IMG/VR virus record: IMGVR_UViG_3300017951_000022
Span: 1-49,006 of that record
Direction: 5' to 3' (one strand)
Length of the DNA: 49,006 nt
Source: a virus
The notes beneath the pieces were generated by a model that was not told where the DNA came from, ran no database searches, and saw only the letters and a program-made list of their open reading frames with translations. The translations under genes were made by a program, and so were the position numbers. Positions 9,635 to 48,813 of this stretch are shown piece by piece. Position 1 is the stretch's first letter, and each line of letters opens with the position of its first letter.

Positions 9635-11068
9635 TTAAGCTCCAACTGTTATGCGTTGCGTTTTGACTGAAGTGTTACTGTATGAAGGCGTCACTAATAG
9701 TCGTACATTACCACTAAGAATATCTGCATCGATTGTACCTAGTGATGAATCTGTTTTTACTTCACCATATTCTGTCATAAAGACATCTGTTCCATTATGT
9801 GTCAGTAGTACCTCTGTTGCATGATATTTATTATCAGAATCATGCATAAGTTGAACAATATACTTGGATGTTCTGTAGATCGAAGCATCATATTGGTCAA
9901 CAACTAATTGGACAGCTGCTGAATCACCATCTTCTTGGTTTGGAACAACACCTCTGTCGATTAGATATGCTTTGCCAAATGATGAGATAACAACGGTATC
10001 GCTCGAGTCGACTTCATAGTCAGTTAGAAGAGTGACACTTGTTCCATCTGTTGCTGTGTAATCGAGTCCTGGAGTAAGTCTTGAACCGTTCAAGAATACT
10101 TCAATTTTACCAATATCATAAGCAAGCGTGTTACTGTTAATATCAGCACCAGTCAACACATATGTTTCAGGGTTGGGTTGGTAAATGTAATCTGTATGGT
10201 CTCTTAGAGATACGCTTGCAGCTGTAATAATTCTTGTCTCGATTGCATCTCCAAGACCTGGAGCCGAATCGAATGTCAGAACATTACTATTTAATGTATA
10301 AGCATCAACGTGTTGTGATACACCATTGATTGTAACAAAGACATTTTGATCTGTTACAGGAGCTGCACCAAGTGTATATGCTGTCGTTGAGCTATCACCA
10401 GTAAAGCTGTTCAGTGTTACATCAGCAGCAACTGATCCACCACCACCTCCGCCTGTTGACGCAAAGGTAATTGTCTTAGATGCTGAGTCTGATGTGATAG
10501 TCATACCAGAGCCAGCGGTAAATCTTACAGCGTTACCACTTGAATCAGATCTTACTGTTTCGGATCCAGTAACATTAATTGTAGCAAAGCCACCACCTGC
10601 ACCTGCTACAGTGCCAGGAGAGAAAACTCCTAGGTCAGAGTCCCACACAAGAGCTTGGCCGTCTTGTACACCGTTTGTATCTACGTTAATGAAGTGACCA
10701 ATACTGTCTTGACTTGTAACACTATCAATGAATGTTCTAAGAACAGCACTATCAACTGTTATAGTTAAGCTCTTAGCGTTTGGACTATCGTTATTGCTTG
10801 TGTTAAGATCAATAAAGTCACCAGCTTTAATTTCTAGTGTATCTTCGCCTACAGCAACTAGATCACTATCACCTGCAACTTTGATTGTCTTAAATGCACT
10901 ACTAAGTACTTGGCCTGAATCTAAAAAGGATCTAATTTGATTGGAATCGTTTTTATAGTATAACCGACCATCAGCATAGTTGATAGCCAATTCACCATAT
11001 TCTAAGTCGCCTGCTAGAGGTACCTTACCAGCAACCGACGACTTTTTGAGTTTTAACTTAGTCGCCAT
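9635..11068 (-). CDS. Tail-fibre protein (shaft type, with 'VNGV' modules)
   Basis: 477 aa. N-terminus MATKLKLKKSSVAGKVPLAG followed by LEYGELAINYADGRLYYKN (about 21-42), the adaptor type found in T4-like marine phage fibres. A Gly-rich linker (TGGGGGGSVAADV, about 203-216) separates it from two beta modules (VTINGVSQHVDAYTL; IEVFLNGSRLTPGLDYTA). C-terminal region about 370-477 is a small beta domain ending QRITVGA. Rich in Asp-Ser dipeptides. Likely part of a fibre shaft joined to the baseplate. Possible weak late-type sequence (TATAAAAC) lies upstream at 11085-11092. Confidence 0.75.
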   Translation of the reverse strand: MATKLKLKKSSVAGKVPLAGDLEYGELAINYADGRLYYKNDSNQIRSFLDSGQVLSSAFKTIKVAGDSDLVAVGEDTLEIKAGDFIDLNTSNNDSPNAKSLTITVDSAVLRTFIDSVTSQDSIGHFINVDTNGVQDGQALVWDSDLGVFSPGTVAGAGGGFATINVTGSETVRSDSSGNAVRFTAGSGMTITSDSASKTITFASTGGGGGGSVAADVTLNSFTGDSSTTAYTLGAAPVTDQNVFVTINGVSQHVDAYTLNSNVLTFDSAPGLGDAIETRIITAASVSLRDHTDYIYQPNPETYVLTGADINSNTLAYDIGKIEVFLNGSRLTPGLDYTATDGTSVTLLTDYEVDSSDTVVISSFGKAYLIDRGVVPNQEDGDSAAVQLVVDQYDASIYRTSKYIVQLMHDSDNKYHATEVLLTHNGTDVFMTEYGEVKTDSSLGTIDADILSGNVRLLVTPSYSNTSVKTQRITVGA

Positions 11069-48160: not shown

Positions 48161-48442
48161 TTACGTGAAACTAATCACATTTGCAACCTTAAACGATCGC
48201 CATTCACCAGAAGCAGTATCAACAACACGGATTACTTCATCACTATATGCAATTGACTTTTCATCCGTGTTGCCATCTTTTGCAAACTCTGGAATTGCAG
48301 ATTCCATAAGTGTACATTTCATATCACGCTCATCGCCATTTACCTTTTTAAAGATTACTCGGCATTCACGCTTACGCAGTTCATCAATCATTTCTTGTCT
48401 ATTCAAAACATAATCCTCCGTATCATAAAAAATTCCAGTCAT
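48161..48442 (-). CDS. Sm-like SH3-barrel protein (DUF2693/WYL_2 type)
   Basis: 93 aa. CRVIFKKVNGDERDMKCTLM (27-46) and EVIRVVDTASGEWRSFKVAN (69-88) match the DUF2693 pattern 'VxFxKxDGxxRxMxCTL ... VxDxxxxxWRSFxxxxI', a small SH3-like barrel common in T4-like phages. Function unknown; nucleic-acid binding is possible. The ATG at 48442 overlaps the upstream stop as ATGA and has AAGGA 8 nt upstream. Confidence 0.75.
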   Translation of the reverse strand: MTGIFYDTEDYVLNRQEMIDELRKRECRVIFKKVNGDERDMKCTLMESAIPEFAKDGNTDEKSIAYSDEVIRVVDTASGEWRSFKVANVISFT

Positions 48443-48645
48443 TCAGTCCATTCCTTTCCAACGGCTGATGCATCCCAAACATATGGACTATACTTAGGAT
48501 TGCCGACAACAACAACGTCAGCATCACCAACTTCAGTCCAAACACGATCGTCCATCCAACGGTGGTAGTATGCAGGACCACCCCAAACCCGGCGAGCTCG
48601 CTGGTAAGTGGCTTCGTCCATACCAACATAGTGCACAGTTCTCAT
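48439..48645 (-). CDS. Small conserved phage protein of unknown function
   Basis: 68 aa, MRTVHYVGMDEATYQRARRV, WGGPAYYHRWMDDRVW, then GDADVVVVGNPKYSPYV. Aromatic-rich. I recall short phage proteins starting MRTVHYVGF with a similar 'RVFGPPxFxHRxxDxR' pattern, without known function. Its Shine-Dalgarno (AGGAG) lies immediately after the 3' arm of the long RNA helix at 48659-48812, so this gene is the natural target if that RNA is regulatory. Confidence 0.68.
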   Translation of the reverse strand: MRTVHYVGMDEATYQRARRVWGGPAYYHRWMDDRVWTEVGDADVVVVGNPKYSPYVWDASAVGKEWTE

Positions 48646-48658
48646 GTCAATCTCCTCT

Positions 48659-48812
48659 GAGACTACTTACCGAATACGCCCTTAGTATATCCAATCGCTC
48701 CGCACGGCCTTATTGACATTGCCGCTCTAGTTTGATTGAAACTAACACTTCTTAGAAGTGATGCTTTTAGCCGTACGGGTCCTCCACACGGACATATCCG
48801 GAAAGTAGTCTC
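48659..48812 (-). ncRNA. Structured RNA element (unknown class), possible cis-regulator of the gene at 48645
   Basis: On the minus strand, arms 48790-48812 and 48659-48681 pair along 23 positions: 19 Watson-Crick, three G-U, one U-U. The G-U pairs would be A-C on the other strand, so the RNA is minus-sense. Inside it are P2 (CCGTACGGC, 48770-48778, with GCCGTGCGG, 48700-48708; one G-U), P3 (CACTTC TAA GAAGTG, 48746-48760) and P4 (TAGTTT CAATC AAACTA, 48728-48744), with P3 and P4 one base apart. The gap is free of convincing genes and more GC-rich than its surroundings. The 3' arm end TCTC could instead pair with GAGA of the next Shine-Dalgarno, a possible on/off switch. Not a tRNA or any class I recognise. 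Confidence 0.72.
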
Positions 48813-48813
48813 C

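Follow-up and report, generated by a model that had tools for sequence, protein, structure and literature searches.

A family of structured RNAs in marine T4-like phages with a loop that changes yet stays self-complementary and may serve homodimer formation

The stretch of DNA analysed in this work, here called the window, comprises 49,006 nucleotides (positions 1 to 49,006 of IMG/VR virus record IMGVR_UViG_3300017951_000022) and is a fragment of a T4-like phage with a gp32 of the Kyanoviridae type. As stated in a preliminary description of this DNA, an intergenic gap of 168 nt (48646-48813) is flanked by a gene for 46 amino acids and a gene for 68 amino acids, and within this gap lies the element whose features are compiled in Table 1. 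A 93-aa open reading frame matching Pfam WYL_2 (PF10902) and phrog_1086 is present on the same strand (48161-48442, minus). In the window, no tRNA or tmRNA was found, and none of the Rfam 15 families (4227 models including ROOL, GOLLD, manA, wcaG, introns and tmRNA) was matched at gathering score.

The minus strand of the element folds with a minimum free energy of -61.7 kcal/mol, as compared to -37.5 +/- 3.9 kcal/mol in 200 dinucleotide shuffles (z -6.2), none of which was as good, while the plus strand folds much more weakly (-44.9, z -4.2). The fold thus clearly exceeds its shuffled controls. The arms of the closing helix, 23 nt each with 108 nt between them, are 83% Watson-Crick complementary and form 19 Watson-Crick pairs, three G-U pairs and one U-U opposition on the minus strand, so that the long, near-perfect closing helix described earlier is borne out.

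Table 1. Features of the element and its surroundings in the window.
Feature	Position	Strand	Evidence or remark
Whole structured RNA element	48659..48812	-	fold z -6.2, 156 bits, homologues in >100 viral stretches
P1 closing helix, 5' strand	48790..48812	-	P1: 21 alignment pairs, 99.3% of cells paired, 10 doubly changed
P1 closing helix, 3' strand	48659..48681	-	ends AAGUAGU here; AAGGAGU is the next gene's Shine-Dalgarno in many relatives
P2 arm, GUGU/GCAU stem and apical loop	48761..48789	-	97.2% of cells paired, double changes in 3 of 4 pairs
Self-complementary loop CCGUACGG, core GUAC 48773-48776, predicted homodimer kissing loop	48771..48778	-	tetramer covariation
P3 hairpin CACUUC-UAA-GAAGUG	48746..48760	-	variable position; absent or a longer insert in relatives
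P4, UUAGUUUCAAUC with GAUUGGA...ACUAA, enclosing P5	48682..48745	-	99-100% of cells paired, double changes
P5 apical domain, near-invariant AGAGCGGCAAYGUCAAUAAGNCCGUGC	48702..48728	-	alignment and pattern search
Shine-Dalgarno AGAGGAG of the 68-aa gene, immediately outside P1	48652..48658 (AGGAG 48652-48656)	-	sequence
Downstream 68-aa gene, no assigned function	48439..48645	-	kept in 71 viral loci
Upstream 46-aa gene; stop codon ends 1 nt before P1	48814..48954	-	sequence

The hairpin is one copy of a folded RNA family. Among the viral loci that carry relatives of the 68-aa gene, a subset has a similar element directly upstream and many do not. A search with the pattern GAGCGGCANNGTCAATAAGNCCGTGC retrieved 105 viral stretches in IMG/VR, and a second pattern confined to P2 retrieved 86, including elements without P5; neither motif occurs in any of 84,980 prokaryote species genomes (bacteria and archaea), and a host origin of the element was rejected on these grounds. 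One match to the P2 pattern, L201, was discarded as a chance hit since the surrounding element is absent. The homologue-bearing stretches, more than 100 in IMG/VR, are contigs of T4-like marine phages, and 12 of 23 large contigs tested contain a gp32 homologue, although two of the 12 are only distant. We delimited 69 distinct elements of 140-225 nt, one of which was dropped for a poor boundary. There is usually one copy per contig; tandem or neighbouring elements of the P1 type are present in L084, L089, L148 and probably L119. The family model R1 (cmsearch) scores the window element, which is among the sequences used for building the model, with 156 bits; opposite-strand matches of 20-32 bits are mirror images of the same hairpins and were rejected as separate copies.

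The family appears to be new to description. Searched by itself against Rfam, the element matched nothing even at E<=10, and its carriers yielded no match besides tRNA and tmRNA. No real match was obtained when 50,697 GenBank phage records were searched by blastn with three copies, and a family-model search of C48C1 and HTVC008M, run without a positive control, came back empty. No earlier description was found in Rfam or in literature searches, which covered openly accessible journal papers. Some element-carrying contigs also contain tmRNA genes, namely L142 (6549-6943, minus), L150 (6787-7181, minus) and L078 (9467-9844, plus). The L142 tmRNA is of the alpha/permuted type according to Rfam, which suggests alphaproteobacterial hosts; the tags are ANNNFAPSGYALAA and ANDNVAPSGYALAA.

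A consensus structure was derived with RNAalifold from an alignment of 36 short forms (A1). It consists of a heavily compensated closing helix P1 of 19-23 bp, the arm P2, a P3 that some members lack, and P4 with P5 at its tip. On this consensus, 99.3% of the cells are paired as against 92.0% in shuffles, with 17 doubly changed pairs (8.8 in shuffles), 108 doubly changed cells (31 in shuffles) and a covariation of 0.302 (0.160 in shuffles), a value that none of 500 shuffles reached. When the partners were slid, only 35-44% of the cells remained paired, a control biased in favour of the structure because the structure was derived from the very alignment tested. Stronger evidence is provided by the compensations, by variants lacking P5 and by single-sequence folds. 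L194, L199, L200 and L202 lack P5 and form P4 as a simple hairpin, P1, P2 and P4 all being retained; two of the P5-less sequences, folded singly, adopt P1/P2/P3/P4 by thermodynamics alone (z -6.9 and -7.8). The P5 helix is invariant in A1 and therefore falls outside the covariation test, and its invariance is in part due to the way the sequences were selected, as part of P5 served as search pattern. L196 carries another loop at this position. P5 is likely the region that contacts a protein or ligand.

Relatives thus keep the pairs, so that the loss of pairing in homologous regions, named in the preliminary description as a refuting outcome, did not occur. The lack of an Rfam match, the homologues and the compensated consensus helices support the view that the locus holds a structured RNA that had escaped recognition and whose fold is under selection. 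The three inner helices originally proposed fared unequally. The P3 hairpin (48760-48746) was upheld. In its minimum free energy fold the window copy has a 10-bp inner helix (CCGUACGGCU/GGCCGUGCGG), but just 3 of 36 homologues retain this helix in full, with 59% of cells paired, and it was rejected as a family feature. The TTAGTTT/AAACTAG hairpin (95% of cells paired) competes with the long-range helix P4, which is better supported by its higher pairing, its double changes and its occurrence alone in the P5-less variants. A pseudoknot between a CAAUC loop and GAUUG was likewise discarded, as these pairs belong to P4.

The core tetramer of the P2 loop is self-complementary in 36 of 36 sequences. 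GGCC (16 sequences), GAUC (11), GUAC (4) and CCGG (4) are strict palindromes, and UCGG (1) is self-complementary by way of G-U, as is GGCU in L198. Strict palindromes reach 97% at the P2 loop as compared to a mean of 7.7% over 82 tetramer windows with at least four variants, and the tetramer read as pairs 1-4 and 2-3 shows a covariation of 0.946 versus 0.156 in shuffles (0 of 500 as high). On a backbone tree of the remaining columns it changes at least 15 times, which, with five tetramers moving as cassettes, means 15 switches and not 15 independent inventions. It is hardly clustered on this tree, 17 of 200 shuffles being as low. L136 and L126, with 97% identity in the rest of the molecule, carry GGCC and GAUC, respectively, and two copies within one phage differ in their palindromes in L084 (GGCC and CCGG) and in L089 (GAUC and CCGG). 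The loop is mostly flanked by a purine before and an A after the tetramer (purine-NNNN-A), and the palindrome is mostly 4 nt long, reaching 6-8 nt in some elements, the window copy included. A degenerate tandem copy in L148 (459-554) has no strict palindrome in its P2 arm.

No partner elsewhere in the molecule changes together with the tetramer. That self-complementarity is kept while the tetramer changes is directly explained by intermolecular pairing of identical loops. A homodimeric kissing loop is expected to vary in just this way, always remaining self-complementary, and this comparative evidence suggests that the RNA may work as an identical pair. A kissing interaction of 4 bp is weak unless tertiary contacts help. 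For the window sequence, nearest-neighbour energies favour by about 10 kcal/mol an alternative in which the palindrome is sequestered within an intramolecular helix.

The genomic surroundings of the elements vary. A tRNA gene (for Thr, Asn, Trp or Pro) begins no more than about 6 nt from the end of P1 in L073, L078, L080, L082, L100, L107, L117, L124, L127, L134, L139, L159 and L163, and the second copy in L084 (L084b) is equally close to a tRNA gene; the number of distinct contexts of this kind is about ten. Sigma70-like promoters lie just upstream of the element in L078 and L084, and TTGACA/TATATT-like sites scoring 11 of 12 precede 5 of 68 elements as compared to 2 of 340 random places. In L083, L093 and L167 the promoter of the next gene comes after the element. 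The orientation of the longest open frame downstream is uninformative in such AT-rich DNA with short genes. The tRNA, tandem and promoter contexts argue that the element is mainly a stand-alone RNA and not a riboswitch. Of the roles put forward initially, the processed phage ncRNA is therefore the better one, and the riboswitch-like leader is not supported as a general role.

A cis-acting translational leader, be it riboswitch-like, a protein operator or a ribosome-coupled switch, in which opening of P1 exposes the Shine-Dalgarno sequence, nevertheless deserves consideration. Where the 3' strand of P1 ends in AGGAGT, an ATG with an open frame follows after 5-7 nt in 29 of 33 elements as against 0 of 35 without AGGAGT, although these counts are inflated by shared descent and not independent; in addition, 27 of the 33 have the stop codon of the upstream gene next to or near P1. 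In such elements P1 may well hide the ribosome-binding site and lie under a terminating ribosome, as judged from this arrangement. The earlier suggestion that the Shine-Dalgarno sequence could pair with the end of the closing helix proved useful for these relatives, in which the 3' strand of P1 is itself the Shine-Dalgarno sequence, but it does not apply to the window copy, where AGGAG lies outside P1. About half of the distinct elements, the window copy among them, have no Shine-Dalgarno sequence in P1. Moreover, the state has only about two origins on the tree, many elements precede tRNAs, other elements or separate promoters, the downstream genes vary, and a cis-acting switch has no need of a self-complementary loop. 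As an account of the whole family the leader is distinctly unlikely, and we regard cis-regulation as a side use in one lineage.

The length of P1 (19-23 bp) and its location between genes and directly before tRNAs would also suit a processing signal of the RNase III type, that is a two-turn duplex separating cistrons and tRNAs with the interior as mere filler. The interior, however, is more conserved than P1 and contains further compensated helices as well as a palindrome under constraint, which makes this explanation quite improbable. Even less credit can be given to a mobile DNA element, in which the P1 arms would be the terminal inverted repeats of a MITE-like unit spreading among phages. 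Varied neighbours, tandem copies and the fact that one upstream gene precedes different versions of the element are in line with it, but repeats recognised by a transposase are expected to be constant, whereas the outer helix varies freely with compensation and its G-U pairs make sense on one strand only. No target duplication was seen by eye, there is usually one copy per genome, and bacterial genomes contain none by motif. An RNA decoy or antitoxin, perhaps dimeric, that sequesters an RNA-binding defence protein or a nuclease of the host fits the exchange of loop and interior cassettes and the phage-only distribution, both of which would suit an arms race. It differs from our preferred explanation in the partner only; as neither a partner nor a linked toxin gene was found, we consider this specific version unlikely, if less so than the translational leader.

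Taken together, we favour a stand-alone, phage-specific structured RNA that is released by processing and has a homodimer formed via the P2 loop as its working form, a reading to which we assign a probability of roughly two in three. What this work establishes is the structure and how it is conserved, that the loop is self-complementary, and where in the genomes the elements lie; from these findings we infer how the RNA may be expressed, processed, dimerised and coupled to translation and which partner and biological role it may have. The RNA would measure about 100-225 nt, the window copy 154 nt, and its ends would be clamped by the 19-23 bp of P1. P1 would open into a multi-arm junction, from which the P2 arm presents its short self-complementary loop; two copies could dock by this loop, and the conserved P5 loop could contact a partner such as a protein. 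The RNA is probably made within phage transcripts and freed by processing. If a tRNA follows, cleavage by RNase P at the tRNA 5' end would generate an element 3' end a few nucleotides from P1. In front of a gene, P1 may use its 3' strand also as the Shine-Dalgarno sequence of that gene, so that the folded helix would mask the start of translation; ribosomes that terminate at the stop codon of the preceding gene, located at the P1 5' strand, could re-open P1 and couple translation. As to function, the RNA may be a dimeric scaffold or decoy, which is the reading we rate highest.

A more far-reaching proposal, which appears possible but doubtful, is that the loops are swappable cassettes of dimerisation specificity which ensure that a copy pairs only with itself within a genome, that the dimer acts against a target of the host or of a competitor, and that P1 provides a ribosome-gated Shine-Dalgarno sequence in one lineage. 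The exchange of GGCC, GAUC, GUAC and CCGG on near-identical backbones would then determine which copies pair. Few small natural RNAs that work as homodimers are known. The family provides evolutionary evidence for such an RNA, as the sequence of the loop shifts and its self-complementarity stays, and it adds an apparently undescribed and widespread RNA family to marine T4-like phages. With a size of about 100-150 nt the RNA is easily transcribed, and dimerisation by the palindrome, swapping of cassettes and gating of the Shine-Dalgarno sequence are directly testable.

Several known RNAs bear comparison. ROOL and GOLLD are phage-encoded structured ncRNAs, often near tRNA islands, which form homo-oligomers partly via covarying kissing loops (PMC12286853). 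The element resembles them in being phage-encoded and often located beside tRNA genes, with a homo-oligomer that is here predicted from the sequence; however, they are much larger (many GOLLD RNAs exceed 800 nt), have other folds in place of about 100-225 nt with one palindromic loop, and their Rfam models match neither the element nor its relatives. The pRNA of phage phi29 multimerises by a 4-bp loop-loop interaction that is sufficient with protein help (PMC7357161). A contact of the same kind is predicted for the element, but pRNA uses two distinct complementary loops to build rings in the packaging motor, whereas a single self-complementary loop predicts closed dimers. In the HIV-1 DIS kissing loop, a palindromic apical loop lies between purines (PMC7357161), reminiscent of the purine-NNNN-A loops described above; that palindrome has 6 nt and resides in viral genomic RNA, in contrast to the mostly 4-nt palindrome of a small phage RNA, and there is no homology. 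The manA, wcaG and PhotoRC-II motifs are structured RNAs from marine metagenomes and T4-like cyanophages (PMC2864571), but they have other structures, are treated as cis-regulatory, and their Rfam models do not match the element.

Compensated P1, P2 and P4 helices and a self-complementary P2 loop, the features by which we define the family, were all found. Variants exist in which the same outer P1 motif encloses different interiors (L064/L206, L035/L204, L203, L084b and L089b), and their P2-like loops read GGCC in L064/L206, L035/L204 and L203 and CCGG in L084b and L089b. It thus seems that the constant part consists of P1 and the palindromic arm, and that P5 and P3 are exchangeable modules. 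The 46-aa gene is followed either by a typical element with a GUAC, GGCC, CCGG or GAUC loop or by an element of the L203 type. It stands directly before an element in six of six distinct contexts, a count that may reflect ascertainment because the loci were mostly found via the element or the 68-aa gene.

A noncoding stretch of about 200 nt ending in GGGGAGGGGCACTGCAGAAAGTCCCTCCCACGA is located directly upstream of the element in L084 (about 795-980, minus) and occurs just upstream of it in L108/L135, L142/L150 and L171 as well. It has no credible match in Rfam and is possibly another structured RNA. Related inverted-repeat elements of 110-122 nt are present in L119 (about 10341-10462, minus) and L067 (303-412, plus). 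They share the outer P1 motif and have an unrelated interior, CTATATAGTACGAGC...AACCCGTAAAATCCTGGT, and the one in L119 lies directly upstream of a typical copy.
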